The position numbers were made by a program, and so were the translations under genes. From positions 186,001 through 250,000 of the forward strand of contig NZ_JAFIQX010000011.1 in assembly GCF_017356035.1 (NCBI RefSeq): a stretch of 64,000 bases of DNA, read 5' to 3'. The notes beneath the pieces are model-generated. The model did no database searches and had not been told where the DNA came from. It was given only the letters and a program-made list of their open reading frames with translations. Origin of the DNA: Longitalea luteola (GTDB lineage Bacteria > Bacteroidota > Bacteroidia > Chitinophagales > Chitinophagaceae). Shown here in pieces: positions 31,807-54,971 of this stretch (position 1 is the first letter of the stretch; each line of letters opens with the position of its first letter).

Positions 31807-31836
31807 ATTATTACTAACAATAAATCAATAAGTAAA

Positions 31837-32665: not shown

Positions 32666-32881
32666 TCACGAGAATTTACAATCGCTACATTCAAGAATTT
32701 CTTCATCCGGTAACCCTGTTACTTCACGAATTATCCGTAAAGCTGCTGCTTTAGTAAGATTATCACTGTTTTTTTGGATATATCTAGCTATTGTAAACTC
32801 TGTACAACCAAGAACATCCATTAATCGGCGGCGTGTAATCGGATTATTTATTGCATTTAATGCTTTTGGGCTGAGTTTCAT
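32666..32881 (-). CDS. 71-residue helix-turn-helix protein, 3' end replaced by IS21 element A
   Basis: The product (MKLSPKALNAINNPITRRRL, then VLGCTEFTIARYIQ and a final acidic tail) resembles short DNA-binding proteins of Bacteroidota. Its last four codons and stop lie inside the end of IS21 element A. Removing the IS and one target copy restores a reading frame that ends after ...ECSDN, so the protein lost nothing essential. It begins 40 bp after the restored stop of the gene at 35541-36038. Longer in-frame starts exist upstream, but they run into element B or overlap the preceding gene. Confidence 0.6.
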   Translation of the reverse strand: MKLSPKALNAINNPITRRRLMDVLGCTEFTIARYIQKNSDNLTKAAALRIIREVTGLPDEEILECSDCKFS

Positions 32882-33085
32882 AAAAGGAAAAGATAATAGG
32901 TGTAGAATATTGAGTAGACAGTTAGACGCTTTTTGATTTATGGAGGGCATCTTCTCTGACATTTGTAGTCGGTAAGCAACAATGCAGAGTTTTTGGCAAT
33001 AAGAAGTGCAGAACTTTTGGCAACAACCAGTACACAAAAATTGGCAACAAGAGTGCAGAGCGGTGTCAAAAATAAGAGCATTGAT

Positions 33086-33835: not shown

Positions 33836-33859
33836 TTGTTGATTGTTTATTAAAAAAGA

Positions 33860-35425
33860 TTAAAACATGTCATAGTCGTTGATAGAGCTGGTTGCCGGCT
33901 GTATCAGCGCCTGGTCTGGCGGTTGATTGTTTAAGGGATTTAGTGTTAGTTGTAAGCTGGTACCCTGCTGGGGATCGTCCGTTTGTTCGTAGAGGTAGTG
34001 GTTCACAATGGCTTTAAAGTCACCGGCTCCGTTGATACCATGCTGCTGACAGTAGGCCAGCGCTTCGTCAACTATCTGTGGTGTTGTGGTGCTGGCTACC
34101 TGCACCAGTATCATCAACTGGTCGCGGACGTAGCGTGGTTTATCCTGCCGGATGGCTGATACCAGTTTGCGTCCTTTTTGAGGATCGGCAAGCATAGAAT
34201 AGAACCTATCCTCCAATTCTATGATAGCCTGGCTCTTTTCCCTTCTGTGGTCATTATTGATAATCTTTTCTCCTCTGCCGGCACTAATTAGGTGCCGGCA
34301 AAGCTCCCGGTGCCCCAGATCATACAACACAATACAGGAGCCTTGTCTTTCGAGCAATACCTTGCTTCCCCGGCCCTTATAGGTTCCCCCTGGCAGCGAG
34401 TAAAAATTCCCTTTGTAAGAGAAGCTGTTGTCCTTACGGACGGTATATTCAACAGCGTTGGGCCGGCAGGTGACCGCTAGGCTAACAGGACGCAGGAATG
34501 GTTTTTCTATTTCCCATTCCGCTACAGGACGTTTTCTGGTAAAACTGTGAGGAAGCTCATTGGCGGTCCTTGCCAGCCATGCCAACGCTTCGGAGTTCAG
34601 CAAATCGATATCGATATAGGTTCTGTTATACAAAAAGTTCTGTTTAACATACTTGACCACGTTTTCGACTTTGCCTTTGCTTTGCGGATCTGATTTACGA
34701 CAAAAGTGAAGCCGGAAGCCGCGTTGGTGTTGATAGCTTTTGAAAGCATCAGTTAAAATCAGATCGCCATTGTTTTCATCGACCATAAATACCCTGTCCT
34801 GATCGTATACCAACGTATCTGGTATCCCTTCCAAAAAGGCAAAGGCTTTTTCGTGGGCATCTATCGCCGTTTGGGACGTAAATGGCTCGGTAGAGAAAAG
34901 AACATATTTGTAGCGAGACCGGGAGAGCACCATCATGAAAAAATAGACCCTGATCCTTTTGCCCTGGCTGTTACGCATATTGTAAACTCCAAAATCTACC
35001 TGCCCCTGAAGGCCGTAAGGCGTTTCTTCTACCATTCCGTAAATGCGGACTTCATCTGTCTTTGGCAGATGATACTGCTGTCGCACCCAGGCAACAAAAT
35101 TGAATACTGTTTTGGGAGATACGCAAGGGAAGCTGGTAAAATGTTCTTTGAGCCAATCGTGCATCTGAGCCGAGGAAGTGTCTCGATATAGTTCCAGCTT
35201 GGATTTTATGAAGCTCTCGTAGGGCTCGAGCACTTTATTTTTAGTTGAGCAGGTTTGGAGGTATTGCTCATAGTCGCGGTCATCTTCGATGGATAATAAC
35301 CTTTTAACGGTCCGCCAGTTTAGGCCAAGAAACTTACTGATATAGCTGATGGAAAAGCCATCTCTGGATAGTTGATGTACCTGGTGATAGATCATAAGCT
35401 TCGATAAATAAGGGGTCATTGACAT
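33860..35425 (-). CDS. istA: IS21-family transposase IstA (element B)
   Basis: A 521-residue transposase with N-terminal helix-turn-helix (DGFSISYISKFLGLNWRTVKRLL). The DDE core has QGQVDFGVY, the Asp in TLVYDQDRVFM and the Glu in SKGKVENVVKYVK. The C-terminal region carries YTVRKDNSFSYKGNFYSLP. It lies 24 bp before istB in transcription order. A perfect 36-bp palindrome sits just upstream of its start. Confidence 0.93.
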   Translation of the reverse strand: MSMTPYLSKLMIYHQVHQLSRDGFSISYISKFLGLNWRTVKRLLSIEDDRDYEQYLQTCSTKNKVLEPYESFIKSKLELYRDTSSAQMHDWLKEHFTSFPCVSPKTVFNFVAWVRQQYHLPKTDEVRIYGMVEETPYGLQGQVDFGVYNMRNSQGKRIRVYFFMMVLSRSRYKYVLFSTEPFTSQTAIDAHEKAFAFLEGIPDTLVYDQDRVFMVDENNGDLILTDAFKSYQHQRGFRLHFCRKSDPQSKGKVENVVKYVKQNFLYNRTYIDIDLLNSEALAWLARTANELPHSFTRKRPVAEWEIEKPFLRPVSLAVTCRPNAVEYTVRKDNSFSYKGNFYSLPGGTYKGRGSKVLLERQGSCIVLYDLGHRELCRHLISAGRGEKIINNDHRREKSQAIIELEDRFYSMLADPQKGRKLVSAIRQDKPRYVRDQLMILVQVASTTTPQIVDEALAYCQQHGINGAGDFKAIVNHYLYEQTDDPQQGTSLQLTLNPLNNQPPDQALIQPATSSINDYDMF

Positions 35426-39692: not shown

Positions 39693-40061
39693 ATGCTTAA
39701 TAATGAATTCAAACGCTGTTCAGTGAATGTATTGTTATCAGTAGAATCAATTAAAAAACACATTGACGACGATCCATTTCAATTCAAAACCACAGCCGAT
39801 TTGATCAGGCATGTAAGTAAAGCACATCGTAATTCGGTCGAAAAGGTATTTAAAGAAGTATATGGAACGGGTGTTAAAGAATACCAGGTAAAGAAACGAT
39901 TGGAAGCTTCCAAGACATTTCTCCGTGAGGGAATGGAAAAAGATAAAATAGCATCCAAATGCTTTTATAGCAGTCAAACAGCTTATTGCCGAGCTTTTAA
40001 AAGTGAGTTTAATGTCACTCCTACTGAATGGCAAGTAAAAGAATTTTTAACGAAGCAGTAA
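39693..40061 (+). CDS. Stand-alone AraC-type DNA-binding protein
   Basis: The 122 residues cover the two helix-turn-helix units of an AraC/XylS domain. The second is clear: MEKDKIASKCFYSSQTAYCR followed by AFKSEFNVTPTEWQ. The N-terminal 50 residues hold an extra helix-turn-helix-like segment (TTADLIRHVSKAHRNSVEKVF). No ligand-binding or receiver domain exists. Three direct repeats spaced 21 bp lie directly after the stop codon, as expected for AraC-type binding sites. Confidence 0.8.
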   Translation: MLNNEFKRCSVNVLLSVESIKKHIDDDPFQFKTTADLIRHVSKAHRNSVEKVFKEVYGTGVKEYQVKKRLEASKTFLREGMEKDKIASKCFYSSQTAYCRAFKSEFNVTPTEWQVKEFLTKQ

Positions 40062-40463: not shown

Positions 40464-40961
40464 ATGCTCAATCAAAGTCAATACAGCCAGAGAGAGCTGA
40501 GAGCACTTGCAAAAGCCATCGAATATATCAATCAGCATCCGCCGGAATGGAAGAGTCCCGGTGCCACTAATGAAAATCATTTTAGCCGCAAAACGCTGAA
40601 AGCATTCGACAAAGCCATTCAATATATAAATAAACACCCGCTTGAATGGACAAGTCCGGACGAGCTTTCTCGTTATAGTGGGATTAATCAATCAACATTG
40701 CAGGCGATTTTCCTGTACAAAACCGGAAGAACAATAAGTGAATACTGTGAGATAATCCGGATAACAATCTCCTGTATTTTGCTTACCGATGATACATTGA
40801 GCACAAAAGAAATAGCCGCACTGTGCGGATACAGCAGCCAAAGTAGTTTCAATAAGGCTTTCAAAAGAGTGAAGGGCGTTTCGCCTGGTAAATGGGGGAT
40901 AGTAGATGGAGATCAACCCGGGAAAATAAAAGTTAACTTATCGGACAAAGAAACTTATTAA
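40464..40961 (+). CDS. AraC-type DNA-binding protein with an internal N-terminal duplication
   Basis: Residues about 65-152 form an AraC/XylS domain: SPDELSRYSGINQSTLQAIF, STKEIAALCGYSSQSSFNKA and FKRVKGVSPGKWG. Before it, a unit of about 22 residues occurs twice: LRALAKAIEYINQHPPEWKS (from residue 13) and LKAFDKAIQYINKHPLEWTS (from residue 45). The first copy lost the helix-turn-helix that should follow. No ligand domain is present. Direct repeats of 21-bp period overlap its 3' end. Confidence 0.8.
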   Translation: MLNQSQYSQRELRALAKAIEYINQHPPEWKSPGATNENHFSRKTLKAFDKAIQYINKHPLEWTSPDELSRYSGINQSTLQAIFLYKTGRTISEYCEIIRITISCILLTDDTLSTKEIAALCGYSSQSSFNKAFKRVKGVSPGKWGIVDGDQPGKIKVNLSDKETY

Positions 40962-41549: not shown

Positions 41550-42044
41550 ATGGAAGGCCCTGCAATTCAAAATCGAAGAATATTCTCCTTTGCGTGGTTA
41601 TCGAAAGCAACGATCGTTGAAATTACTTCAGTACTGTTTATTATTTTATTCTTATACACCGGCATCAGCAAACTGATGGAGTATTCAGTTTTTAAAGAAC
41701 AAATAGCCGATTCACCTATATTAAAACCTATGGCCCCTTTTATTGCCTGGGCATTACCTCTGACCGAGTTCCTAGTTTCCTTATTATTAATAATACCGCG
41801 CTGGCGGCTGAAGGGATTATATGCTTCCCTGTCGCTGATGATCGCATTCACGATATACATTATTGCGATTATGACCTTCAATAAAGAGCTGCCCTGCAGC
41901 TGCGGAGGCATCATCTCTTTGCTTTCCTGGGAAGGCCACCTGGTATTCAACAGCGCATTTATTCTTCTGGCATTTATCGGCGTACGGTTAGAAAGACAGA
42001 ACCGGCGAGCTATCAAAGCCGATATGAACATACTCAATGCATAA
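41550..42044 (+). CDS. MauE/DoxX-like redox-associated membrane protein (copy 1)
   Basis: A 164-residue protein with four membrane helices: ITSVLFIILFLYTGISKLM, MAPFIAWALPLTEFLVSLLL, ASLSLMIAFTIYIIAIM and a last one near residues 130-150. Between helices 3 and 4 it has PCSCGG (C116, C118), the cysteine pair of MauE-type proteins. MauE is needed for disulfide maturation of methylamine dehydrogenase, and relatives are thought to pass electrons or disulfides across the membrane. It opens the plus-strand cluster and has a paralogue at 44609. Confidence 0.82.
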   Translation: MEGPAIQNRRIFSFAWLSKATIVEITSVLFIILFLYTGISKLMEYSVFKEQIADSPILKPMAPFIAWALPLTEFLVSLLLIIPRWRLKGLYASLSLMIAFTIYIIAIMTFNKELPCSCGGIISLLSWEGHLVFNSAFILLAFIGVRLERQNRRAIKADMNILNA

Positions 42045-42061
42045 CTGATAAAACGTAGCGT

Positions 42062-42958
42062 ATGGCAGGCATTATCAATCAAAACAACGAGGTTACTACA
42101 CAAACTACTGTAGTTAACCAACCCGAAGTGGCTAATGCAGAAAGCAGCTCTTCAGATACAGCGAAAGTAAATGGTGAACAAGCAGTAATTATCAGCCGGC
42201 TTTCCATCATTATACCAGCGTATAACGAAGAGAAGACGATAGCGAAGATCCTTGACCGCATCAATGAAGTAAAGTTGCTGCGGAATATAGAAAAGGAAGT
42301 GATCATTGTAAATGACTGTTCCAGTGATAATACAGAAGCGGTAGTACAGAATTATATTTCCAATACGCCAGACCTTACGATCAACTATTTCAAATATATC
42401 AAACACGAGGTAAACCAGGGGAAGGGTGCGGCGATCCATACAGGTATAGCCCAGGCAACCGGCGATTACTTGTTGGTACAGGATGCCGATCTCGAATATG
42501 ATCCGGGTGAGTACAACACACTCTTGAAACCCATTGTACTTGGCTCGGCAGATGTGGTATACGGCTCTCGTTTTATGGGTGGCAATCCTCACCGCATCCT
42601 GTTCTTCTGGCATTCGATCGGGAACAAATTTTTAACGTTCCTGAGCAACATGTTCACCAATTTAAATTTGACGGATATGGAGACGGGTTATAAGATGTTC
42701 AAGACTTCCATAATTCAACGGATCGACCTTGCAGAGAAGCGGTTTGGATTTGAACCGGAGATTACGGCAAAGATTGCAATGGTGCCAGGGATAAGGATTT
42801 ATGAAGTTGGTATTTCTTATTACGGAAGAACGTTTGCAGAAGGAAAGAAAATTGGTTGGAAAGATGGATTTAAAGCGATTTACTGCATTTTGAAATATTC
42901 ATTGTTTCATAATAGAAGTGTTGAGTCAGACAAGGTGCGAACAGCCAATAATAAGTGA
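42062..42958 (+). CDS. Family 2 glycosyltransferase (polyprenyl-phosphate mannosyl/glucosyltransferase-like)
   Basis: The 298-residue protein has a GT-A fold with LSIIIPAYNEEKTIAKIL, VIIVNDCSSDNT, GKGAAIHTGIAQATGDYLLV and the metal-binding QDADLEYDP, followed by YGSRFMGGNPHR and LTDMETGYKMF. This pattern is that of dolichol/undecaprenyl-phosphate sugar transferases. It would load a sugar on a lipid carrier, which is the donor used by GT-C membrane transferases such as the two encoded next. The first 45 residues are a Gln/Asn/Ser-rich extension absent from typical family members. Confidence 0.9.
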   Translation: MAGIINQNNEVTTQTTVVNQPEVANAESSSSDTAKVNGEQAVIISRLSIIIPAYNEEKTIAKILDRINEVKLLRNIEKEVIIVNDCSSDNTEAVVQNYISNTPDLTINYFKYIKHEVNQGKGAAIHTGIAQATGDYLLVQDADLEYDPGEYNTLLKPIVLGSADVVYGSRFMGGNPHRILFFWHSIGNKFLTFLSNMFTNLNLTDMETGYKMFKTSIIQRIDLAEKRFGFEPEITAKIAMVPGIRIYEVGISYYGRTFAEGKKIGWKDGFKAIYCILKYSLFHNRSVESDKVRTANNK

Positions 42959-43022
42959 CAGTACTGAAACTGTTGAATGGATATTAAAATAAAGATTTTC
43001 TAGACCTATTTCAACGCATTGT

Positions 43023-44582
43023 ATGAATAGATCAATCAGCATTTCGTCAGCCACAATTTCCTTTAGAGAATTTATTTGGGCTGATCGGCATAATAGAGTC
43101 TTATTGATAATTGCAGTAACAGCAATTGCTATTCAATTCGTAATTTTTAAGTATTTCTACCCTTTTGCTAGCTACATACATGGTGATTCATTTGCATATT
43201 TAAATGCAGCAGATCGGAATTCCCCAATTAACACCTATATGATAGGCTATTCCAAGTTCCTTCGACTAATCAGCGTATTTACAAGGTCCGACATGGGATT
43301 GACAGTCCTTCAGTATTTAATGATTCAAGGGGCATCCTTACTACTATTATTTACACTATTTTATTTCTATAAGCCATATAAGATAACTCAATACATAATG
43401 TTGTCCTTTATTGTTGTTAATCCCTTGTATTTGCATCTGGCAAACCTTGTAAGTAGCGACTGTATATTTACAGCTCTCAGTCTTAGCTGGGTTTCGTTAT
43501 TGTTGTGGACAATACACAGGCCCTCAAACGCCATAATAGTTACGCATGCGTTAATACTTTTTATCGCCTTCACAGTACGATACAATGCCTTGATATATCC
43601 GATTATAGCAGTATTCGCGTTTTATATTTCAAAACTGGAACTTAAGAAGAAGATGATGGCTCTAGGTTTGTGTGGAATATTGTGTGGATCATTTGTAATT
43701 CTAACCATGTATGAGTACCATAAACTAACTGGACATTGGCAGTATTCACCCTTCAGCGGATGGCAAATGGCCAACAACGCCATGTATACATACAGGTACG
43801 TGAACAATGCTGAACGCAAACAAGTGCCGAAAAAATTTCACCAACTGCATAAAATGATCAACGAATATTTTGACAGCACACGTGATATTTCAAAGCATCC
43901 ACAAGAAGCACTTGTTGCCAGCACAGTTTATATGTGGTCACTGAAACTACCGCTATTTGAATATCGCAACGGCCTATTCAAAAATGATAGCAATGCTACC
44001 GAGCTAAAAAAGTGGGCAAGCATGGGTCCTCTATATAGATCTTATGGTTCATATATTATCACGCAATATCCCTTCAAGTTCCTACAGCATTTTATAATAC
44101 CGAATGCCGGAAAATATTATGCTCCACCAGTTGAATTCTTAGAGCAATATAATTCTGGAAATGAGGATGTCACAACCCAGGCAAAAGAGTGGTTTAATTA
44201 TAAAAGTACCAAAGTACACACACGAACAAAAAACAACTGGGTTACAGTCCTCGACCATTACCCAATACTCTCGGGAATAGTAAACGTATTAATGTTATTT
44301 GGTCTAATCTTTTACCTGATCTTGAAGGGATGGCGTAGCAATTCAGATTTAAGTAAAGGAATATTTTTAGGAGCAATGGTTTGGCTTCTAAATGCTGGGT
44401 TTACAATATTTGCGTCATCAGCCGCCTTACGCTTTCAATCCTTTCCAATTTTGCTTACCACCGTCACAGTGGCCCTATTAATAGATTGGTTGTGGAAAAT
44501 GGCCATGAAGACAGAATCAAAAATTAAAGAGGCTTCAAATGAAAATAAAGTCGTTGTTGTTTCTCCAACCACTATCGCATAA
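43023..44582 (+). CDS. GT-C-like polytopic membrane glycosyltransferase (copy 1)
   Basis: 519 residues with about ten membrane helices. The first external loop holds an Asp (D55 in YIHGDSFAYLN), where GT-C enzymes of the GT39/ArnT type have their catalytic acid. IGYSKFLRLISVFTRSD and NLVSSDCIFTALSLSW are conserved in the paralogue at 45142. A soluble loop between helices (FSGWQMANNAMYTYRYV) is also shared. GT-C enzymes take sugar from polyprenyl-phosphate and place it on exported protein or lipid; the adjacent GT2 would supply that donor. The enzymatic role is inferred from topology, not proven. Confidence 0.65.
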   Translation: MNRSISISSATISFREFIWADRHNRVLLIIAVTAIAIQFVIFKYFYPFASYIHGDSFAYLNAADRNSPINTYMIGYSKFLRLISVFTRSDMGLTVLQYLMIQGASLLLLFTLFYFYKPYKITQYIMLSFIVVNPLYLHLANLVSSDCIFTALSLSWVSLLLWTIHRPSNAIIVTHALILFIAFTVRYNALIYPIIAVFAFYISKLELKKKMMALGLCGILCGSFVILTMYEYHKLTGHWQYSPFSGWQMANNAMYTYRYVNNAERKQVPKKFHQLHKMINEYFDSTRDISKHPQEALVASTVYMWSLKLPLFEYRNGLFKNDSNATELKKWASMGPLYRSYGSYIITQYPFKFLQHFIIPNAGKYYAPPVEFLEQYNSGNEDVTTQAKEWFNYKSTKVHTRTKNNWVTVLDHYPILSGIVNVLMLFGLIFYLILKGWRSNSDLSKGIFLGAMVWLLNAGFTIFASSAALRFQSFPILLTTVTVALLIDWLWKMAMKTESKIKEASNENKVVVVSPTTIA

Positions 44583-44608
44583 TTTGAAAATGAAATTAAT
44601 TCATCAAT

Positions 44609-45055
44609 ATGAGACGAAGCACCATTATTGAAACCGTGACAGTTTTATATATTATACTGTTTTTATACACCGCTATCAGCAAGATTATTGACTATCCAAT
44701 CTTCAAAGAACAATTAGAGCTCTCACCTATTTTGAGTTTTTCGGCTAAACCTGTTGCCGTTTTAGTTCCGGTCGCAGAACTAATTGCTGTCATTGGACTT
44801 ATGATACCAAGGTGGAGATTAAAGGGACATTTCTTAAGCATATTGTTGATGGTTGGCTTCACACTGTATATAACAGTCCTTATGATGATTAGTGAACACT
44901 TGCCATGTAGCTGCGGTGGCATAATTGGTTTACTATCGTGGAAGCAGCATGTGATTCTTAACTGTCTGTTTATTGGGTTAAGTGTGGCTGCAATCGTATT
45001 GCAAATCAAACAAAAAAAAGAATTTGAAAAAAACTGGGAACCCTCATACGGATAA
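44609..45055 (+). CDS. MauE/DoxX-like redox-associated membrane protein (copy 2)
   Basis: The 148-residue paralogue of the gene at 41550 has four membrane helices, the same opening IIETVTVLYIILFLYTAISK, IPRWRLKGH and the cysteine pair C100/C102 in LPCSCGGIIGLLSW. It sits 26 bp after the first GT-C gene and 86 bp before the second. The MauE and GT-C genes therefore occur as a duplicated pair. Confidence 0.82.
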   Translation: MRRSTIIETVTVLYIILFLYTAISKIIDYPIFKEQLELSPILSFSAKPVAVLVPVAELIAVIGLMIPRWRLKGHFLSILLMVGFTLYITVLMMISEHLPCSCGGIIGLLSWKQHVILNCLFIGLSVAAIVLQIKQKKEFEKNWEPSYG

Positions 45056-45141
45056 AAATAAAATCGTGTAAAAAAAACGATAATAACTCCTGATTGACTA
45101 CGTAAGGCTAAACAGACAAAGTAAAACTTCAAATCTCAAGC

Positions 45142-46689
45142 ATGTTAAAGAAAGAAAATATTTGTCAATTAACATTTTCTACATGGATTTATCATGATAG
45201 AGAAAATAAAAGACTATTGTGGTTTTCTTTTGCGGCTCTTATTGCGTGCTTTACCTGGCTAAAAATAATTTACCCATACCCAAATTTTATGCCGCCTGAT
45301 TCGATTTCCTATGTTGAGGCAGCCCAAAATAATCAGTTCATCAATCTTTGGGCTATAGGTTACTCCAAATTCCTGCGTCTTACAAGTTGTTTCACTCGTT
45401 CGGATTTTATTTTAGTCTTAATACAATATCTGATTTTACAGGTATCGCTTTTATATTTTTTATTTACACTACGCTATTTTATCGACATGAGCACCTGGAC
45501 CTTTAGGATTGTTGTATTAATAATAATCGCTAATCCCTTGTTATTACATATATCGAATTTTGTGTCGAGTGACTGTTTATTTACCGCCGTAAGTGTTTTT
45601 TGGTTTACCCAAATAATGTGGATCTTGTATCGTCCATCAACAAGACTAATATTTGTTCATGCTTTAACTGTAGTATTAGCTTTCACAATAAGATTTAATG
45701 CACTTTATTATCCAGCAATAAGCGTTTTAATAATAGCTTTTTCAGAGTTTCCTTTTCTCAAAAAAGTTCAAGCTGTGAGCGTCATATTAATGTTACCGTC
45801 GCTTTTTATAAGTTGTACTTACCGCGAATACAAATTACAAACTGGAACGAGGCAGTATTCTGCTTTTAGTGGATGGCAACTGGCAGCTAACGCTTTGTAC
45901 GGTTATGCGTATTCTGACCCTATTAAACTCGATGAGGTGCCAAAAAAGTTTAAGCCATTGCACTGGATTGTTAACAGGCACATGGATTCACTGCGGCATC
46001 TGCAAATCAGACCCGATAATGAAGTTGCACTTTATTACCAGTGGGGTATAAATTCACCATTAAGGGTTTTCATGGTCCAACACCTTAAACATCCCGATTC
46101 AAAGAACTATTTACAGCAATGGTCGTCTGTATCCGTCCTTTACAGTGAATACGGAAAGTATATTATCTCCAAACGACCATGGCAATTCATGAAGTATTAT
46201 CTCTGGCCAAACTTTCTAAAATTTTATGTTCCACCAACAAAATTTATGGGACTCTATAATCTTGAACAAGACACAGTCGATTCTACCATTACTAAGTGGT
46301 TTAATTGGAATGATAATAAAGTATCCGTTCTATCATCAACCAAACAAATAAAAATAGCTGAAGTTTTTCCCATAACTATAGCCATTGTAAATCTCATCTA
46401 TATATTATCTTATCTCTTAATTTATTTTCTCCGTATCCATCGAGATGAGAATAAGATGTTCAAACGAATTTTAAACTGGAGTTTCATAGTCTGGATTGCG
46501 AATTTATCCTTTAGCGTATTCGCCGCCCCTATAGAAATACGTTACCAACTGTTTTCTATGGTAATAACGTTCTGCCTTGTGCCTTTACAACTATCTCTCT
46601 TAATTAAAAAGGTTATGCTTGATCCATCGAATTCATCATATGATAAAGAAGACAGTCTGCTGTACTCAAAAACACAAAACATGATTTAA
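45142..46689 (+). CDS. GT-C-like polytopic membrane glycosyltransferase (copy 2)
   Basis: 515 residues, about ten membrane helices, colinear with the protein at 43023. Shared landmarks are the first-loop Asp (D53 in PPDSISYVEAA), AIGYSKFLRLTSCFTRSDF, NFVSSDCLFTAVSVFW, FTIRFNALYYPAISV and FSGWQLAANALYGYAY. The two copies are divergent enough to be old duplicates with possibly different acceptors. The stop is two bases before the start of the thioredoxin-like gene, which indicates co-translation. Confidence 0.65.
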   Translation: MLKKENICQLTFSTWIYHDRENKRLLWFSFAALIACFTWLKIIYPYPNFMPPDSISYVEAAQNNQFINLWAIGYSKFLRLTSCFTRSDFILVLIQYLILQVSLLYFLFTLRYFIDMSTWTFRIVVLIIIANPLLLHISNFVSSDCLFTAVSVFWFTQIMWILYRPSTRLIFVHALTVVLAFTIRFNALYYPAISVLIIAFSEFPFLKKVQAVSVILMLPSLFISCTYREYKLQTGTRQYSAFSGWQLAANALYGYAYSDPIKLDEVPKKFKPLHWIVNRHMDSLRHLQIRPDNEVALYYQWGINSPLRVFMVQHLKHPDSKNYLQQWSSVSVLYSEYGKYIISKRPWQFMKYYLWPNFLKFYVPPTKFMGLYNLEQDTVDSTITKWFNWNDNKVSVLSSTKQIKIAEVFPITIAIVNLIYILSYLLIYFLRIHRDENKMFKRILNWSFIVWIANLSFSVFAAPIEIRYQLFSMVITFCLVPLQLSLLIKKVMLDPSNSSYDKEDSLLYSKTQNMI

Positions 46690-46690
46690 A

Positions 46691-47182
46691 ATGAAACGAA
46701 TATTTTGGATTCTTCTTGTATATGCTATAATTGGATGTAATGGGCGCCGAACCGTTATTAAAACAGGTTTGGAAGGAACCTTGCTTCCAAGTTTTAGTCT
46801 ATTGTATATTGATAGTGTAACTTATATAAATACGAGTAGTTTTCCGGTTAATAAACCTGTTGTATTGTTTTACTTCAGTCCTCATTGTCCTTACTGCCGT
46901 GCTCAAACCGAAGACTTCATTGACAATATGAAATCATTATCAGATATAACTATTTGTATGTTTTCAAATTTTCCTCTAAAAAATATTAAAGACTATTATA
47001 AACATTACGATCTTGCTAAATATCCTAATATCATTGTTGGTCAAGATTATAAAGTGTACTTCAGTAAACACTTTAATGCTATTGGGGTGCCCTATTTGGC
47101 AATTTATAATCGCGAAAAAAAATTAAATAGCGTATTGATGGGCAAAGTTAATATATCAGAAATAAAAGAACTTGCTGAGTAA
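46691..47182 (+). CDS. Thioredoxin-fold lipoprotein
   Basis: A 163-residue protein with lipoprotein signal MKRIFWILLVYAIIGC (lipid Cys16). A thioredoxin-like domain follows, with the active-site pair C66/C69 in FYFSPHCPYCRAQTEDF and the cis-Pro region AIGVPYLAIYNREKK. The CPYC dipeptide is of the DsbA/PDI-like, oxidising-to-isomerising type. It would act on the periplasmic face, likely linked to the MauE-like proteins of the same transcript and to the four-cysteine peptides encoded next. Confidence 0.82.
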   Translation: MKRIFWILLVYAIIGCNGRRTVIKTGLEGTLLPSFSLLYIDSVTYINTSSFPVNKPVVLFYFSPHCPYCRAQTEDFIDNMKSLSDITICMFSNFPLKNIKDYYKHYDLAKYPNIIVGQDYKVYFSKHFNAIGVPYLAIYNREKKLNSVLMGKVNISEIKELAE

Positions 47183-47432
47183 ATCTTTGTTGCGCAACAT
47201 ACGTGCATGGTAATACTATAATGCACAAACCAAAGTAAACAGTATCGAGTGAGTGGCCACGATCTCGAATTACTGGGATTTACTTTAATACCTGGAAAAA
47301 TCAAATGTCTGATTTCAGAGGAAATGGTTATCCAGCATGTCCACTTTCGCATAAAAAGTGGAAAAAGGATCAGCCGAAAACCTTTAGAAAAGAGTAGGCA
47401 ATTTATTAAGTCAAAACCAAAAGCAGTTTTTT

Positions 47433-47726
47433 ATGAAAAAAGCAAAAATCATGTTGTTGTCTATTGCAATTTTAGCAGTAGTTGGTGGCGCATTAGCTTT
47501 TAAAGTTAAGAAAGACCAATTTAAATATGTATGCTATAATCTGACAGCACCACCCGCATCTGGTACTGATACTAAAACCACATGCGAATTCTCTTATACT
47601 GTAACCAATAGAATAGGAAGTGGAACACAGAGAAATATCCACTATACGCTTGTAGACACATATGATAAATGCCTGAACAATCAGGTTACTTGTCCTACAG
47701 TAGTTTCTACAATTGTTGCAGAATAA
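47433..47726 (+). CDS. Small exported protein with four conserved cysteines (copy 1)
   Basis: The 97-residue product has an N-terminal signal-like segment (KIMLLSIAILAVVGGALAFK) and a mature part with cysteines C34, C51, C80 and C87. Conserved blocks are KDQFKYVCYN, DTKTTCEF and VDTYDKC. The tandem neighbour at 47919 keeps the same four cysteines. In layout it recalls the short Bacteroidota exported proteins of the DUF6520 sort, but I cannot confirm membership. I infer a disulfide-bonded periplasmic or secreted peptide that is the client of the upstream redox and glycosylation genes. A terminator follows. Confidence 0.65.
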   Translation: MKKAKIMLLSIAILAVVGGALAFKVKKDQFKYVCYNLTAPPASGTDTKTTCEFSYTVTNRIGSGTQRNIHYTLVDTYDKCLNNQVTCPTVVSTIVAE

Positions 47727-47767
47727 CTGACAGGTTATTTAATGTCTTCAATTTCATTAAGAATCGT

Positions 47768-47797
47768 GGTTGGCGAATATTCGCCAACCTCTTTTTT
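47768..47797 (+). terminator. Intrinsic terminator between the two small-protein genes
   Basis: GGTTGGCGAATATTCGCCAACC is a perfect 22-bp palindrome followed by TCTTTTTT, 42 nt after the first small gene. The second small gene therefore needs read-through or its own promoter. Confidence 0.88.
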
Positions 47798-47918
47798 CTA
47801 TTAGTCTATTAATTAACTTTCAAGATCTATTCGGATACATCCTAAAAGAAAACGATGGTGACAAGGCCACCTAGACAAATTCCTTTTAACCATACAAGAA
47901 CAACTTAAAAATAATTTT

Positions 47919-48209
47919 ATGAAGCTTGCAAAATTTATGTTATCGTCTTTAGTGATTTTGACTATATCAGGAGGAATATTAGCATTCAAAATACGAAAAG
48001 ACCAATTTAACTACATATGTTATAATGAAACAGCACCGCCCATATCAGGTGTCGACACTAAAACTACATGCGTCTTCATTTATCTTGTTACCGGTCGAAC
48101 TTTAGTTGGAGGCAATCGAAAAATACATTACACGGTTGTAGACTCATATCATAAATGCGTTAACGAAGTTACGTGCCCGTCTATTGCATCGACTATTACC
48201 CTTGAGTAA
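47919..48209 (+). CDS. Small exported protein with four conserved cysteines (copy 2)
   Basis: The 96-residue tandem paralogue of the gene at 47433 has signal-like KFMLSSLVILTISGGILAFK and cysteines C34, C51, C80 and C86. It retains KDQFNYICYNETAPP, DTKTTC, KIHYTVVDSYHKC and EVTCPS. The cysteines and flanking residues are better kept than the rest, as expected if they are paired. Function unknown. Confidence 0.65.
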   Translation: MKLAKFMLSSLVILTISGGILAFKIRKDQFNYICYNETAPPISGVDTKTTCVFIYLVTGRTLVGGNRKIHYTVVDSYHKCVNEVTCPSIASTITLE

Positions 48210-48468
48210 CAGTTATGCTTATCAAAAATGCATCTAATAGCAAAGGCCGAAGAGTTATGGACGAAGTTTTTAGAAAGCTTTCCATGATTTCGGCACAACC
48301 AGCTTTTATCGCTGATACAAAAACGGCCTCTATTTCCTTTATCTATCAAAATTAAACTGCAATGGCCACTTCGCCGTTTGTAGCCGTTATTAAAATTAAA
48401 TTCGTCGCCAAGTATGAAAAAGCCCCTCACTCCTCTAAATACTAGCAATTTGGACTTCAGACTTTGAA

Positions 48469-51297
48469 TTAAGGAATATTGCCGCTTTCATCAGGCTTCA
48501 TACCATCGTCGATTCCTTTCAGACTTAGCGGTACACCTTTTGTCATCCAATTGGCTGGGGGGCTTTTTTTCAAATAATAATCAAAAAATTGCTGTACCCG
48601 AATGGTATAATCAAGTGCATCTTTGCCAGTTAAACTATGATCCCCTGAATCATACTGAAGCAACCACACTTTTTTTTGCAACCTTCGTAAGGCCATATAC
48701 ATTTCTACACCTTGATTCCAATCACAAGCTCCATCGTTTTGATTGTGTATTAAAAGTAGCGGAGTGCTTACCTTGTCAGCTCTAAACACAGGGGACGATC
48801 GGATGTATAAATCTGGTCGCTCCCATAAGGTAGCCCCTATCTTGTTGTGACCGATTTCAGAATGCAGCATTTTGCTTTCCTCTGCTTTGCCCTTCGTTCT
48901 AAGAATGCCCAAATATGTAGATATCTCATTGCTAACGGTTGGAGCCGCTGCACAGGCAGCAGCAAACACATTGGTAGAAGTAATTGCATATAATGTTTCC
49001 CCTCCCCCAAAACTATGGCCTTGCAATCCAATTTTATTTTTGTCAATAAAAGGTAACTCTGACAGGTATTTTGCTGCTCCTGCAACTGAATTAACAGCAC
49101 AATCGCCAACTACTTTATTACTTTCACTCGCAACTGAGTAAAAAATGTCTGGTGTAAAAATCAAGTAACCTCTACTTACATACCACGGAATATTTATTCT
49201 ATCCTGGGATATTTTAGGCCTCGGAAACTGATATAGGTTTTGAGAAAACTTTTCGTATATTGAAAATATAAGAGGATATTTTTTCTTTGGATCAAAATTC
49301 TCTGGTTTATACAATACGCCCTGACAGAGAGTCCCATCGAGTTGTCTATAAGTTACTAACTCAGTAGTTAGCCAATTGTACGACATCTGGGGTTGTAAAT
49401 TCGTTAACTTCTTGAAGGTCTTGAAGTCATGAGTAAGGAAAAAATTAGGCGCTTCACTTGAAGATTCACGCTTTACAATCCAGACATCTTTAGAAATGGC
49501 CTTTAAGGGCAAGAAATTGGCAAAGAAACCATCGCTTGGTATCATTTCGAGGTCACCATGACAAACGGACCACGGACCCATGGACAACAATTCCAGCTTA
49601 GGAATTTTACTTATTATTAAATTGTAAAATCCATTGTGTTTGCTATCCATGTTAAAAGCAACTAATCGCAACGATTTATTTTTAGGCACGATACCTCGCT
49701 CATCAGTCGGGTTGCCAAGCCACCTAAATTTGATATGTTTTTTGCGTCCTCCTGTAATATTTAATGGAGGAATCTTTCCATCGAGATCTAACTGCCAAAT
49801 ATCATAATTGTCAAAAACTAATACCGCTGTCTCCTCCGGCAACCAGCCGGCTATCCCTAACGGAGTTTTTGGATAGCGCTCCGAAAATGGGTGTGGTTCT
49901 TCTGAACAAAACCAATCACCAGGTACATCTCCTGAAATATTATATGTTTTAGACGTCTTCAAATTTTGACTATAAAAGTGCATACGGCCAGGATCAAAAA
50001 AAACCTGATACTGGTAATCAGGAGAGAAAAAATAGCTTGCATTAGTAATTAACTTCTTTCGACTGCCGTCTTTTAGAGATACCAACCATTGCGATTTATC
50101 AGATAAGGATGGCCACCAATATTCAATAATAGGCATCTTATCCATTACAATACCATAATCACCAAATGTTCCATAACATTTTTCGCCTTCTTTTTCGACT
50201 ACGGTAATTACACTATTCTGTAAATTATACGCGACCAGCTTGGATGTTAAATTAAGAACGGCATTTGCAAACGAATTAGGATCAATCCTCTTCATTTGCT
50301 CGATTTGTAACACGCTATCTTTATAACTCCACACATCAACTTGTACACCTTTCCTTGACTCGTCATTAATTTTTGAGGAGATGATAGGGCATACTTTGAA
50401 AAGAATATATCTTCCATCATCTGTAAATGACGGACATTGATCAAATATTTTCAGATTTGAATCAATTCCTCTCGATTTATTATTAATCTTAATAACTGCA
50501 CTGTCCATTCCGCTACTGAAATACCAAATACTGTTTCCACTTTTACTATTTCGATGAAACTCCAGTGAATCCGAATCGATAAATGTATTTGGTAAGGATT
50601 TTATCAGCAACAATAATTGACTCCCAGTTACATCAATATTCCAATCCAATACACTAGCATCCCTGGCTGGAACTGACTGAGGTTTCCAGATTGTTCTTAT
50701 TACACCGCTCTTTAAATCAAACCACCGAATTTCATTACCTTTCGTCTTTAGTATTAATACTTTAGCGCGATCATTAAATAAGTAATTCGATGTGGATGAA
50801 AATCGCTTCTCCTCATTTTTTTCTAAATCATACATTACAAGATCACCGTTTCGAGCCATATATAAAGTCAATTCGGTATCAGGCCCGGAAACAAGCTTAT
50901 AATTTACCACGCCCAAAACGCAGCGCATCTCATCACTTCCAAGTTTCAAATAACATAGGCTGTCTTTATTTTGGAAGACAAAATATTTAGAGTTTTTTGT
51001 AAAATTTCCAACGTCACGGACTCCTATAAGTTGTTTCGACCATCCAGTCTCAGTACTGGCTACAATAGTTGTCCTACTATTTATTGGCTGGTTTTCGATT
51101 CTGTATTTGAAAAATTCTCCATCTGAGCTAATTAAACAATCTGTTTCTAACGTTGGCCATGCCTTTATCGCTTCCAAGTCAATCACCGGCTTATTTCTTG
51201 AAGTAAAAGAATTTGGAATCTCTTGTAAGTTTGTGGATTGAGGATAAGATGATTGACAAAACCAAATTATAAAAAACAAAAAAGATATCTTTTTCAT
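48469..51297 (-). CDS. Exported S9-family (prolyl oligopeptidase-like) serine peptidase
   Basis: A 942-residue protein with signal peptide MKKISFLFFIIWFCQSSYPQ. The first 620 or so residues form a beta-propeller-like region. The C-terminal alpha/beta-hydrolase domain has the Ser in GLQGHSFGGGETL (about residue 760), Asp in HNQNDGACDW (about 855) and His in YDSGDHSLTG (about 885). S9 enzymes of this size (dipeptidyl peptidase or acylaminoacyl peptidase type) cut short peptides. Last gene of the SusC/SusD locus, 280 bp after the thioredoxin gene. Confidence 0.88.
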   Translation of the reverse strand: MKKISFLFFIIWFCQSSYPQSTNLQEIPNSFTSRNKPVIDLEAIKAWPTLETDCLISSDGEFFKYRIENQPINSRTTIVASTETGWSKQLIGVRDVGNFTKNSKYFVFQNKDSLCYLKLGSDEMRCVLGVVNYKLVSGPDTELTLYMARNGDLVMYDLEKNEEKRFSSTSNYLFNDRAKVLILKTKGNEIRWFDLKSGVIRTIWKPQSVPARDASVLDWNIDVTGSQLLLLIKSLPNTFIDSDSLEFHRNSKSGNSIWYFSSGMDSAVIKINNKSRGIDSNLKIFDQCPSFTDDGRYILFKVCPIISSKINDESRKGVQVDVWSYKDSVLQIEQMKRIDPNSFANAVLNLTSKLVAYNLQNSVITVVEKEGEKCYGTFGDYGIVMDKMPIIEYWWPSLSDKSQWLVSLKDGSRKKLITNASYFFSPDYQYQVFFDPGRMHFYSQNLKTSKTYNISGDVPGDWFCSEEPHPFSERYPKTPLGIAGWLPEETAVLVFDNYDIWQLDLDGKIPPLNITGGRKKHIKFRWLGNPTDERGIVPKNKSLRLVAFNMDSKHNGFYNLIISKIPKLELLSMGPWSVCHGDLEMIPSDGFFANFLPLKAISKDVWIVKRESSSEAPNFFLTHDFKTFKKLTNLQPQMSYNWLTTELVTYRQLDGTLCQGVLYKPENFDPKKKYPLIFSIYEKFSQNLYQFPRPKISQDRINIPWYVSRGYLIFTPDIFYSVASESNKVVGDCAVNSVAGAAKYLSELPFIDKNKIGLQGHSFGGGETLYAITSTNVFAAACAAAPTVSNEISTYLGILRTKGKAEESKMLHSEIGHNKIGATLWERPDLYIRSSPVFRADKVSTPLLLIHNQNDGACDWNQGVEMYMALRRLQKKVWLLQYDSGDHSLTGKDALDYTIRVQQFFDYYLKKSPPANWMTKGVPLSLKGIDDGMKPDESGNIP

Positions 51298-51577
51298 TGC
51301 TTTTCAACACTTGTTTAAGGACTTTATTAAATTAACAATATTATTATTCTAATTGACGCAACAGTAATAATATGATGATGCTTGCTTTCAATGAAGTAGT
51401 CAGTCAACGCATTATCATTTTTCAAAGGGATGGGAAATTAAAGTCATATTAAGTTACAAAAAAACCGAAGACAGTTGAGAAAATGGTTGCCCTTTTCTTT
51501 TAAAATATATCACTCAATTTAACCTATAAAATGTCGACAAAACCAAAAAAGATTCTCCCACAAGACAAGACCAATTG

Positions 51578-53188
51578 CTAATTTTTCATATTTGTCCAGG
51601 TGGGAATTCCCGCTTTCATTTTTGCGATAACAACTTCATATACTTTTACTTTATACTCCAACCTTTCGGAAATCGAAATCTCTAAGGCTTTTTGCTCCCA
51701 AGCGAGTGCTTCTTTTTTCTTACCCGTCTTATATAAGAGATTCGCGTAGGTATCTAAATAGCCAACATTATCAGAACGTCGCTTTACAATGTCACTCATT
51801 AATCTAATTCCTCTTTTCAATTGCTTAATATCGTTACAATGAAAAAAAACGTCATTATACAAAAATGCATTAACATCATAGTCTCTGAAGTAGTTAGAAG
51901 TATCGGTCTTTATTTTTTCGAAAACCTGAAGGTTATATTCGATATACTGCGGCCAATTCCTATTATATTTTTGTGTCCTATAGTTGTAGAATCTCGCTTT
52001 TGAAAAAAGTATTACCCGTTTTGCATGATAGCGGTTGTACTTTTTATTTATGATTTGATATAGACTATCCCAATTCGGATCATCATTTTTATCCTTGCAT
52101 AAACTCCAGCTTGAATCCAGATTCTCACCTATGATGATGTCATCTACGATGTTATCGGCATAATCCTTTTCTTGCATTGCGGCATCGATTATTGACGCTT
52201 TTTCAAATAATATTCTGAAGCCTATATCCTTACTCGATTGGGTAAATGCCGTAATGAACCGTATATCGTTTTTAGAATACTGAATCCTTGACGACAAATG
52301 ATAGATGTATTTATCAGCTCTTTCTTTCAAGGCTTGATTTTCCTTAAACAATGTCATTAACACAAGATTGTTGGCGTTATCCCAACTATCATCATTAAGA
52401 CTAGATAAGTATTGAAGCGCAAATGCTTGTACTGATTTGTTTTCTTTAAATGCGTTAATCAAATTGACTATTCTATTCTCCGTAATTTCATTGCGACTTA
52501 AAGTATTTAAGAAATTCGCAACCAAATCTTGAACGGGTTTAAGTTCATTATAGTCTGACATAAATTCGATATTATCGGCTGAGCCCAATTGCGATAGTGA
52601 TATTCTGTTTAAATAGTCAAGGGCAATTTTTTGTGACAATTCCATATCAGTATTTTGAAAAGCCCTAGCCAGTCCCTTTAATTCACTTGTATCAAACATT
52701 CCTGGTCTAAAATTATTTAAGATTGCATAATATTGTTTATTTGGGGTTAATGCGTTGATTACTTCTTCCCTAAACTTTGTAGTGTCTCGATACCCGACCG
52801 CTTTATGAATAGGTTCTCCATTTGAATTGAAAAATAGGAAGGTAGGGAATGAAGTTACATTATAAGCAGATTCGATTAAACTAGCAGTATGATACCAATT
52901 TCTAACATCGAGATTATCTGTGTCAGTTTTATCCATCTGAACCTTTACACAAATAAATTTGTCATTCAACTTCGACACAATATTCTCATTTGTAAAAACG
53001 TATTTGTCCATTGCTTTGCACGGGCCACACCAAGTTGCAAAGCAATCGAGGAAAATAAATTTGTTATTTTGTTTTGCCTTTTCTACTATTTGATCCCAGC
53101 TTTTACCTTTTTCATATTTGACACCCACTCCCTGTTGTGCAATGAGTGACATAGGAATTAACGTTAACAAGATGAATACTTTCTTCAT
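51578..53188 (-). CDS. Exported thioredoxin-domain protein with long helical C-terminus
   Basis: From the ATG at 53188 the protein has about 536 residues with signal peptide MKKVFILLTLIPMSLIAQQ. A thioredoxin-like domain with FLDCFATWCGPCKAMDKYVF comes next, with NVTSFPTFLFFNSNGEP as the cis-Pro region. The remaining 380 residues are helical and TPR-like, ending with KAL/EIS repeats. It is a periplasmic thiol-disulfide protein, lying between SusD and the S9 peptidase genes. A start 17 codons upstream adds a Lys-rich tail and is less likely. Confidence 0.85.
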   Translation of the reverse strand: MKKVFILLTLIPMSLIAQQGVGVKYEKGKSWDQIVEKAKQNNKFIFLDCFATWCGPCKAMDKYVFTNENIVSKLNDKFICVKVQMDKTDTDNLDVRNWYHTASLIESAYNVTSFPTFLFFNSNGEPIHKAVGYRDTTKFREEVINALTPNKQYYAILNNFRPGMFDTSELKGLARAFQNTDMELSQKIALDYLNRISLSQLGSADNIEFMSDYNELKPVQDLVANFLNTLSRNEITENRIVNLINAFKENKSVQAFALQYLSSLNDDSWDNANNLVLMTLFKENQALKERADKYIYHLSSRIQYSKNDIRFITAFTQSSKDIGFRILFEKASIIDAAMQEKDYADNIVDDIIIGENLDSSWSLCKDKNDDPNWDSLYQIINKKYNRYHAKRVILFSKARFYNYRTQKYNRNWPQYIEYNLQVFEKIKTDTSNYFRDYDVNAFLYNDVFFHCNDIKQLKRGIRLMSDIVKRRSDNVGYLDTYANLLYKTGKKKEALAWEQKALEISISERLEYKVKVYEVVIAKMKAGIPTWTNMKN

Positions 53189-53472
53189 TTTACTTTTAAT
53201 TTTACTGAATCCTTTTTTAAACGCTCTAATTACTATCAAAATGAATTTGCTTTATTGAAGTGATATTTGATCCCCTCAAGACTTTGAGCAGGCTCACAAT
53301 CGTGATATGATTAATTTTGTATCGGTTTAGAAATGGAAATGTTATGTTGAAAGCAGCGGCTCTACAAAATGAACAGCATAATGGAAATTGTAGGTGCAAA
53401 TGATAGTTCCTAATTTAAACTAACAATTAAGTGTTCACTAAGGATCACCGTTGCTTCACCATTATTCTCGAA

Positions 53473-54954
53473 TTATTCGTATCCTGGATTTTGAGCTAAC
53501 TGGCCGGCTTTCTGCAATTCAGTTAAAGGGATCGGATATAGTTGCTGAAATGACCGCCAAACATTGGTATTTGATTTCAGTGGACATACGACGGTCATTA
53601 CATTATCAACGTTATTAGTTCTTTTTAAATCAAACCACCGATGTCCGAACTCTGAAAATAATTCGACTTGTTTTTCATGTATTATCGCTGTTAGCAGGGA
53701 AGCTTGACTATTTGCGTTTGTATTGTCCAATCCAGACCGATTTCTTACAATATTTAAATCAGTTTTAGCGTCATCTATTTTATTAAGTTGTGCCCTTGCC
53801 TCAGCTCTTATTAAGTACTGCTCGCTTAAGCGCAGTATGGTTAGATGCTCATTGATTGAGGTGCTATTCTGGTCAATCTTATATTTTTTCGGAAAATAGT
53901 AAATGTCTGATCCAATTTTGATACTATCTACCCATTTTCCATATCTCCTTTGGTCTGCTGGCTCAAAAGCGCCCAGCAATTGATTGCTAAGAAAAACAGG
54001 ATTTTGATAATCGTTCGGCCCAGAGGATGGGATTATAAAAACTCTTGCATCCTGAGTATTATAACCATCATAAACCGGTTGTAATTGCCATATCGCTTCC
54101 TTGTTTCCTTTACTGGCCTTTAAGAACGCATTATCCAATGAACTTAAAGAATACAATGAATTGTTACCGATAACAGCGCTCGATTGGATCTCGGCATTTG
54201 TCCAATCTCCAAAATATAGATACACACGTGCCAATAAAGCGGTAGCAGCCCATTTGTTAGGTCGCAGCCGTTCACTGCTATTTTTCAATAGAGTTCCATC
54301 AAGGTAAACTTCTTTTAGTACCGTTTGGGCATCCAACAGATCAGCAATTAGTTGCTTATAAACTTCAGATTTAGCAGATCGAGGAAGTTGGGAATTCAAC
54401 TTGTAATCAGTGGTTAGAGCTAGCGGAACATCACCGTATAGATTTGTTAAATAGAAAAAATAAAAAGCTCTCAAAAATTTTGCTTCTCCGAGCAATTGAC
54501 TTTTTACGTCTGGTGTCAACTTATTGGTGCTACTTAAACCCTCAATGGCACTATTACACAAAAAAATCATATTATATAATGGTGCCCAATATTCTGTGCC
54601 TGGTGTCGTGGAGGGAACATCAGCGTATAGAGAATTTATATAATAATAAAATTTTGCATCTGGGCTGGAGATACCGCTAAATAGTGTGAACTCGTCGGAT
54701 GACAACCCAGTATATAATGACATACTGTTTGAACCAGTAAAAATACTTTCTGAACTCATGGTTGCATATAAGTTAGTCAATACAGCTATCGCTGTGCCGT
54801 CACTATTGTACACATTGCCATCGGCGAGAAACGTGTCGGGTGGACTAACCTCTACTAATTTCTTGCACCTGATGAAACCAACTACAAGAAAACATACAAC
54901 TACAATTATTATTCTGTTGAAGATTGGAATAAGTAACTTATTATAAGAATTCAT
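53473..54954 (-). CDS. SusD/RagB-family outer-membrane substrate-binding lipoprotein
   Basis: A 493-residue lipoprotein: a long hydrophobic segment ending at the lipid cysteine in VGFIRCKKLVEVSPPD, then SusD helices with NLYATMSS, LLGEAKFLRAFYFFYLTNLYGDVPLA, ATALLARVYLYFGDWTNAE and the C-terminal VRNRSGL, LFSEFGHRWFDLKRTN, LYPIP and NPGY. It caps the SusC transporter encoded 17 bp upstream in transcription and captures substrate at the cell surface. Confidence 0.95.
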   Translation of the reverse strand: MNSYNKLLIPIFNRIIIVVVCFLVVGFIRCKKLVEVSPPDTFLADGNVYNSDGTAIAVLTNLYATMSSESIFTGSNSMSLYTGLSSDEFTLFSGISSPDAKFYYYINSLYADVPSTTPGTEYWAPLYNMIFLCNSAIEGLSSTNKLTPDVKSQLLGEAKFLRAFYFFYLTNLYGDVPLALTTDYKLNSQLPRSAKSEVYKQLIADLLDAQTVLKEVYLDGTLLKNSSERLRPNKWAATALLARVYLYFGDWTNAEIQSSAVIGNNSLYSLSSLDNAFLKASKGNKEAIWQLQPVYDGYNTQDARVFIIPSSGPNDYQNPVFLSNQLLGAFEPADQRRYGKWVDSIKIGSDIYYFPKKYKIDQNSTSINEHLTILRLSEQYLIRAEARAQLNKIDDAKTDLNIVRNRSGLDNTNANSQASLLTAIIHEKQVELFSEFGHRWFDLKRTNNVDNVMTVVCPLKSNTNVWRSFQQLYPIPLTELQKAGQLAQNPGYE

Positions 54955-54971
54955 AGCTTTTACTTTAAAGA

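Follow-up and report, generated by a model that had tools for sequence, protein, structure and literature searches.

Gene content of the two facing operons

The stretch analysed here (the window) is 64,000 nucleotides of contig NZ_JAFIQX010000011.1 of Longitalea luteola, family Chitinophagaceae. It contains a cassette for small exported peptides on the plus strand (41550-48209) and, facing it on the minus strand (48469-60974), an operon which encodes an S9 peptidase, a thioredoxin-TPR protein, the outer-membrane import pair SusD and SusC (the latter bearing an STN domain), FecR and an extracytoplasmic function (ECF) sigma factor. The two halves may form one system, in which a peptide would be exported, re-imported by its own SusC and SusD (SusCD) and cut by the peptidase. 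The cassette comprises eight genes, with two regulator genes ahead of them:

39693-40061 and 40464-40961, plus strand: two small HTH_18/AraC-type regulators (Pfam HTH_18, E=2e-11 and 6.8e-18)
41550-42044, plus strand: MauE-like membrane protein 1 (MauE1), PCSCGG motif (Pfam MauE, E=1e-33)
42062-42958, plus strand: family 2 glycosyltransferase (GT2), polyprenyl-phosphate sugar synthase-like (Pfam GT2, E=2.1e-33)
43023-44582, plus strand: GT-C-like multi-pass membrane protein 1 (GT-C1), judged by family membership, AlphaFold2 model and conserved residues
44609-45055, plus strand: MauE-like membrane protein 2 (MauE2), PCSCGG motif (Pfam MauE, E=9.9e-28)
45142-46689, plus strand: GT-C-like protein 2 (GT-C2), paralogue of GT-C1
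46691-47182, plus strand: thioredoxin-fold lipoprotein (TrxLP), CPYC motif (Pfam Redoxin, E=2.2e-6; Thioredoxin_2, E=2.9e-6)
47433-47726, plus strand: exported peptide A (pepA), conserved leader and four-cysteine core, from alignments
47768-47789, plus strand: perfect 22-base hairpin followed by a T-rich run, terminator-like, between pepA and pepB
47919-48209, plus strand: exported peptide B (pepB), conserved leader and four-cysteine core, 63% identical to pepA

A first-pass annotation of this DNA had the open reading frames (ORFs), their plus-strand orientation and their coordinates right; it counted seven coding units, and there are eight. The CSC(GG) motifs that it assigned to the two MauE-like proteins and the CPYC of the lipoprotein are present in the translations, and the two GT-C-like proteins are paralogous as it claimed (36% identity over 491 positions, E=1e-111). 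The four cysteines it described in the tandem peptides do align, at positions 34, 51, 80 and 87 in pepA and 34, 51, 80 and 86 in pepB. It also regarded the genes as a coherent set. The same set was found again by profile mapping in many loci, and the cassette is therefore more than a chance assembly. The convergent half was absent from that annotation. Both MauE proteins lie above the PF07291 cut-off (116.8 and 97.4 bits against 27). The hairpin could set the ratio of pepA to pepB or uncouple pepB from pepA. A TAnnTTTG promoter for the peptide genes was considered and rejected, as it occurs in 11 of 129 upstream stretches against 13.3 expected. Upstream of the cassette, at 30235-35425, are two neighbouring putative IstA/IstB-type transposase pairs, judged by the look of their ORFs.

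The facing operon reads as follows:

48469-51297, minus strand: S9 (prolyl-oligopeptidase family) peptidase with a signal-peptide-like start (Pfam Peptidase_S9, E=2.8e-18)
51578-53239, minus strand: thioredoxin-TPR protein (TrxTPR), WCGPC motif (Pfam Thioredoxin_2, E=3.7e-12)
53473-54954, minus strand: SusD of a peptide-facing subfamily (Pfam SusD_RagB; 619 bits with a profile from other genomes)
54972-58403, minus strand: SusC TonB-dependent transporter with an STN domain (Pfam Plug; STN, E=8.4e-10)
58963-60207, minus strand: FecR anti-sigma factor (Pfam FecR and FecR_C)
60378-60974, minus strand: ECF-type sigma factor (Pfam Sigma70_r2 and Sigma70_r4_2)

The window proteins carry both domains that define a SusCD pair (SusD_RagB and the TonB plug). 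They also show the combination expected of FecR/ECF trans-envelope signalling, with STN on the transporter beside FecR and the sigma factor. All three SusC proteins scanned from the L. luteola genome have an STN domain. The Ser-Asp-His triad predicted for an active S9 peptidase is kept across copies: the nucleophile serine in 60 of 60, the aspartate in 56 and the histidine in 59. TrxTPR has WCGPC or WCAPC in 24 of 33 copies. On the biosynthetic side, the CxCGG of MauE is kept in 65 of 66 copies; among 43 copies of TrxLP there are 32 with CxxC, seven with CPYS and four in which no motif was found.

Recurrence of the layout and the DUF6520 loci

Using profiles built for this analysis, 91 loci were mapped in addition to the window. 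The order that repeats on the biosynthetic side is AraC-type regulators, MauE and GT2, GT-C, TrxLP and one or more peptides; genes similar to AraC-type regulators stand upstream in many related loci. The facing half repeats as S9, TrxTPR, sometimes DUF4397, SusD, SusC, FecR and sigma factor. Not every mapped locus holds every part, and the simplified loci consist only of MauE and a peptide facing SusD/SusC. Several tandem peptides often face one SusCD. The two-sided layout was also found in other genera. Counting only peptides of the window's family with more than 5 kb of sequence between them and the edge of the locus, a convergent S9, SusD, TrxTPR or DUF4397 gene is present within 5 kb of 77 out of 98.

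The L. luteola genome has a second two-sided locus, on contig C11, where three tandem six-cysteine peptides are accompanied by a single MauE and a single GT-C; its S9 peptidase is 31% identical to that of the window. A third peptide cassette is found at the start of contig C39 (L070). The end of contig C3 carries an import half (L250) and a transposase-like ORF. From their gene content it is plausible that an insertion element divided a single system between these two contig ends; no 20-mers are common to the ends compared.

Peptide models matched 38 of 394 genomes of the Chitinophagaceae, of which the weakest matches may be due to chance. In a sample of the order, the peptide family was present in six of 248 genomes, all six from the Chitinophagaceae. 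The GT-C family was found in 19 of 147 Chitinophagaceae genomes. When the GT-C proteins were used for a scan, Niastella species and Longitalea arenae came out as the named organisms nearest to the L. luteola genome, with Chitinophaga and Puia next. Several loci have GT-C fused N-terminally to a flavin-dependent amine-oxidase-type domain, giving proteins of about 1030-1090 amino acids (Pfam assignment for one). These fusions are L072:7440-10718, L075:5961-9098, L076:7694-10861, L079:8772-11918 and L080:7434-10538, and no separate GT2 was detected in the five loci. In another locus (L179), a 20 kb region of a single genome encodes eight small leader-bearing peptides with two or three cysteines each, distributed over the two strands.

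The stripped core of the system is MauE, a small exported peptide and a facing SusD/SusC, usually with S9. This core is the usual setting of DUF6520 (PF20130), a Pfam family of unknown function. A scan of the phylum gave DUF6520 in 18 of 296 genomes, and 20 of the 23 hit places were fetched. MauE lies upstream in 18 of these 20 loci, and a convergent S9/SusD/SusC within 5 kb, likewise, in 18 of 20. DUF6520 loci with this layout occur in three taxonomic families (f24, f25 and f28) besides the window's own, and a facing pair with MauE also occurs in f23 (L286). Given this spread of DUF6520 loci, the core of the system is shared by several families of the class. GT-C was matched at E<=1e-20 in none of the 15 DUF6520-carrying genomes of other families; the GT genes are an add-on of the window's taxonomic family.

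The DUF6520 proteins resemble the window peptides in size, exported leader, a mostly four-cysteine core, MauE upstream and S9/SusD facing. They differ in that the Pfam model matches neither pepA nor pepB (at E<=0.1), nor the three C11 paralogues (at E<=1), and in that window-type cores are dissimilar and richer in threonine. Three of eight peptides from the simplified loci pass the DUF6520 cut-off, and four or five more score weakly. Core composition was taken from 16 of the 18 DUF6520 loci outside the window's own; L220, for which no ORF was listed, and L225, apparently a chance match, were excluded. In the other families, the MauE that precedes DUF6520 has about 495-560 amino acids, with an extra C-terminal region of about 350 amino acids (L210, L211, L213, L215-L223, L226 and L227). 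L208 has a separate gene resembling this C-terminal region. In the open-licence library searched, and with the wording used, no paper names DUF6520 and none describes the system.

Cysteines, pairing with SusD and the GT-C proteins

Alignment of the peptides shows conserved leaders and hypervariable, threonine-rich cores. The peptide profile is matched by 132 ORFs, of which 130 were counted after exclusion of any that had at least 180 amino acids or was overlapped by a better-scoring gene. Eleven have no cysteine, 40 have two, 53 have four, 21 have six and five have an odd number, so that the count is even in 125 of 130. It is also even in all 16 DUF6520 cores from elsewhere. Four conserved cysteines were rejected as a defining feature, since peptides with none, two, four and six exist. 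MauE or TrxLP is encoded within 9 kb upstream of 72 of the 119 cysteine-containing peptides and of none of the 11 cysteine-free ones (Fisher p=7.8e-5); counted per peptide cluster, the figures are 54 of 87 and none of 10 (p=1.5e-4). The parity and this link both support, indirectly, the disulfide bonds that the first-pass annotation had proposed. It is well supported by the gene and cysteine patterns that MauE and TrxLP would mature the peptide disulfides. Exported proteins with a single core cysteine were also seen, at L253:8920-9243, in L254 (inside ORF 11492-12001) and at L283:5290-5607, with no MauE in reach; those of L253 and L254 each face a SusD of the peptide-facing subfamily in the L. 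luteola genome. The L254 and L283 proteins have a W[FY]xDxDxTxPTG stretch in common.

The L. luteola genome encodes 93 SusD proteins (Pfam SusD-like_3) in 7.3 Mb, about one per 78 kb. They were ranked with a profile built from 45 of 64 listed peptide-facing SusD sequences, all from other genomes. The window SusD came first (619 bits) and the C11 SusD second (608 bits), and the profile also pointed to more peptides in facing position. Among the 14 top SusD genes, eight have a convergent small exported ORF within 4.5 kb; among 20 lower-ranked ones, none has (p=1.7e-4; small exported ORFs called by one crude signal-peptide rule, controls being ranks 17-37 without 20, with about 3.7-5.3 kb of downstream sequence for the 4.5 kb range). 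Ten of the 14 face a peptide if the window and C11, where S9 lies in between, are counted. Ten SusD places were also read in five further genomes. Above 450 bits, one of two faces a four-cysteine peptide with MauE and S9 (G604); at 240-285 bits, one of five faces a tandem pair of peptides, again with MauE; the three controls have no such facing peptides. An S9 profile (26 of 47 listed sequences) separates four copies in the L. luteola genome, at 747-905 bits, from the next at 135 bits, and the four keep the triad. One of them, at C39:345667, has no recognised SusD or peptide nearby.

Similarity between cores co-varies most with similarity between SusD proteins (Mantel r=0.57 when all pairs are taken among the 40 units that passed a leader-length filter, from 55 with SusD). 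Within genomes the value is r=0.55 (p=0.006, 28 pairs). The all-pairs values for TrxLP, SusC and GT-C are 0.34, 0.22 and 0.14. For the 18 complete units they are 0.44 with SusD, 0.31 with TrxLP, 0.11 with S9 and -0.11 with GT-C.

The GT2 of the window has dolichol-phosphate mannose synthase (5mlz) as its best solved relative (E=7.2e-15). The label 'GT-C-like' has thin sequence support. The window copies have no Pfam match at E<=0.1, and among 58 family members PMT_2 is matched by one and DUF2142 by two. Against solved structures, one GT-C profile (A2) gave no match up to E=1 and another (A4) a best E of 0.88. A confident AlphaFold2 model of GT-C1 has a predicted local distance difference test (pLDDT) score of 94.4 and a predicted template modelling (pTM) score of 0.92. 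It shows a long first helix, a loop with D55 and two short helices, and then more long helices, and is hydrophobic at the expected membrane helices. Residues Q97, D146 and N361 are invariant in the 58 members, and D55 is kept in at least 90%.

Interpretation and comparison with known systems

The gene content, its recurrence, the conserved active sites, the even cysteine counts and the pairing with one SusD subfamily are direct observations. To account for them we propose, at just short of an even chance, a make-and-take system. Export of the small peptides would rely on their conserved Sec-type leader, and in the periplasm the MauE membrane protein and the thioredoxin-fold lipoprotein would form the peptide disulfides. 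In the window's family, GT2 may make a polyprenyl-phosphate sugar which the GT-C-like enzymes might conceivably attach to the threonine-rich core. The mature peptide would leave the cell, and the convergent, cognate SusD/SusC would bind and re-import it, as the conserved pairing suggests. In the periplasm TrxTPR would reduce the peptide and S9 would cut it, judging by their domains. Where SusC carries STN beside FecR and the sigma factor, as in the window, import may be sensed and induce the import operon. A broader form of the proposal is possible, and we hold it with some reserve: self-made, exported, disulfide-stapled SusCD ligands, in some groups perhaps glycosylated, would be a whole class in Bacteroidota, with DUF6520 as one branch. 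Each ligand would be matched to a SusD of a dedicated subfamily, with some ten pairs in one genome serving as private signals or cargo carriers.

Several observations weigh against the make-and-take system. Secretion, binding, import and cleavage are steps which we infer from sequence. The sole SusC scanned from another taxonomic family lacks STN, so signalling is not universal; by the STN pattern, import and cleavage are more general, and sensing is an extra. Among the cysteine-containing peptides, 47 of 119 lack a redox gene in the 9 kb upstream. Two four-cysteine, DUF6520-like peptides of the L. luteola genome (L259 and L261) face SusD with no MauE in the scanned range, and one DUF6520/MauE locus of the window's own (L212) has no facing SusD. 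No peptide faces the SusD genes ranked 7, 10 and 13 in the L. luteola genome, and the sequence beside the one ranked 3 stops at the end of contig C3. In another genome (G029), a SusD of 469 bits is followed downstream by a small exported ORF with one cysteine (L283), which has the same orientation and does not face it. Cores co-vary with MauE (0.51), S9 (0.50) and TrxTPR (0.46) over all pairs as well, and with MauE within genomes (0.42). Leaders track SusD (0.70) and MauE (0.71) more than cores do. Much of the SusD signal is therefore shared history. TrxLP exceeds SusD in one subset of 33 units (0.44 against 0.34), and co-variation with SusC is weak, many SusC ORFs being cut at locus ends. Since the sequences are related, the p-values are optimistic.

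The first-pass annotation had a different emphasis: the upstream genes would build a disulfide-bonded, glycosylated secreted peptide, GT2 supplying a lipid-linked sugar and GT-C attaching it, with no mention of uptake. As a full account of the locus we consider this rather unlikely. The dolichol-phosphate mannose synthase match of GT2 is in keeping with it, as is the gene order of many loci, in which GT-C stands after MauE or GT2 and before the peptides. Threonine makes up 18.0% of 57 cores with an adjacent GT-C gene, against 13.3% of 14 cores with redox genes and no adjacent GT-C (p=0.008), 12.7% of six cores from GT-C-less genomes of the window's family (p=0.013) and 8.6% of the 16 DUF6520 cores from elsewhere (p=1.2e-8). 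However, it also reaches 17.4% in 53 cores with neither GT-C nor redox genes adjacent, though their genomes carry GT-C elsewhere, and the difference between GT-C-adjacent cores and all other peptides of the family is not significant (p=0.095). Threonine glycosylation is possible: the pattern leans towards it but is confounded with descent. N-glycosylation found no support: 35 of the 57 cores next to a GT-C gene hold an N-X-S/T sequon, where shuffling predicts 35.8. Nor do cores co-vary with GT-C within genomes (r=-0.07), and 14 of the 91 mapped loci have a GT-C family member but no peptide match (in one of them, L078, a loose pattern gave a candidate). Glycosylation by the upstream genes is no more than possible. 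By that annotation's own yardstick, wide occurrence of the small peptides without redox and GT genes counts against it. They are widespread without GT-C, which is missing within 9 kb upstream of 73 of 130 peptides and, at E<=1e-20, from the 15 DUF6520-carrying genomes of other families.

Other readings turn on what the peptides do at SusCD. They might be small accessory subunits, lids or periplasmic partners of the transporter and not a released ligand. The pairing and co-variation with the SusD subfamily would suit such a role as well, but the peptides are encoded against the SusCD operon with maturation genes of their own, their cores are hypervariable while the leaders are conserved, S9 peptidases accompany them, and several tandem peptides often face a single SusCD; we regard this as improbable. 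TonB-dependent receptors are common entry doors for bacteriocins, and the peptides, being variable, exported, tandem and mostly cysteine-paired, could be bacteriocin-like toxins that enter through a sister SusCD, with self-uptake and S9 as immunity. No immunity-type gene was recognised in the main ORFs scanned, although no systematic search for one was made, and some ten paralogous facing pairs in one genome would suit sensing or scavenging better. A toxin is accordingly a distinctly improbable reading. With 93 SusD proteins in the genome, the facing SusCD/S9 operon could also be an ordinary peptide-scavenging locus that lies beside the cassette by chance. This is very improbable, because such genes stand opposite the peptide in 18 of 20 DUF6520 loci and for 77 of 98 peptides of the family, and the control in which none of 20 lower-ranked SusD genes faces a small exported ORF disfavours it.

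SusCD transporters are usually seen as takers of glycans or peptides from the environment. If the make-and-take system is real, a genome that writes the ligand beside the transporter would change this picture, and the orphan family DUF6520 would have a function. MauE would stand out as a candidate general disulfide-maturation factor for exported peptides. Bacteroidota would have a make-and-take or signalling loop parallel to the isopeptidase-type lasso clusters of Proteobacteria, which still lack an explanation. SusC, SusD, FecR, the sigma factor and an exported hydrolase are features that the window shares with utilisation loci carrying SusCD and ECF sigma/FecR. The window differs from them by a convergent small exported peptide with maturation genes, which the 20 lower-ranked SusD genes of the same genome lack.

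Three described systems share parts of the arrangement. The MauE/MauD maturation of methylamine dehydrogenase and the MauE-containing candidate clusters for ribosomally synthesised and post-translationally modified peptides in Streptomyces (decRiPPter), whose predicted precursors have at least eight cysteines (PMC7794033), likewise have MauE, once with MauD, beside a small cysteine-rich product. They belong to another phylum, and the portions of the source drawn on here mention no SusCD/S9 part. Methanobactin is a self-made peptide taken back by a specific TonB-dependent transporter, according to the part of the source used (PMC9601215). It differs in that some of the peptides here are cysteine-free, nothing in the analysis points to copper and no methanobactin biosynthetic gene was recognised in the main ORFs scanned. 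The third kind is that of the isopeptidase lasso clusters (astexin, sphingopyxin and benenodin). These are described, in the part of the source used, as having a precursor, a prolyl-oligopeptidase-family peptidase, a TonB-dependent transporter and sigma/anti-sigma factors in one locus, and their role is called enigmatic (PMC9266682). The best NCBIfam model for the window S9 is the lasso isopeptidase (NF033523, E=5e-11), at 42 bits against a cut-off of 400. No lasso cyclase or transglutaminase-like leader peptidase was found by Pfam and NCBIfam among the nine main ORFs of 41550-51297, and the window has Sec-type leaders, redox and GT genes and an added SusD. The proposed make-and-take system would resemble the lasso isopeptidase clusters in its logic, not as a member of them.

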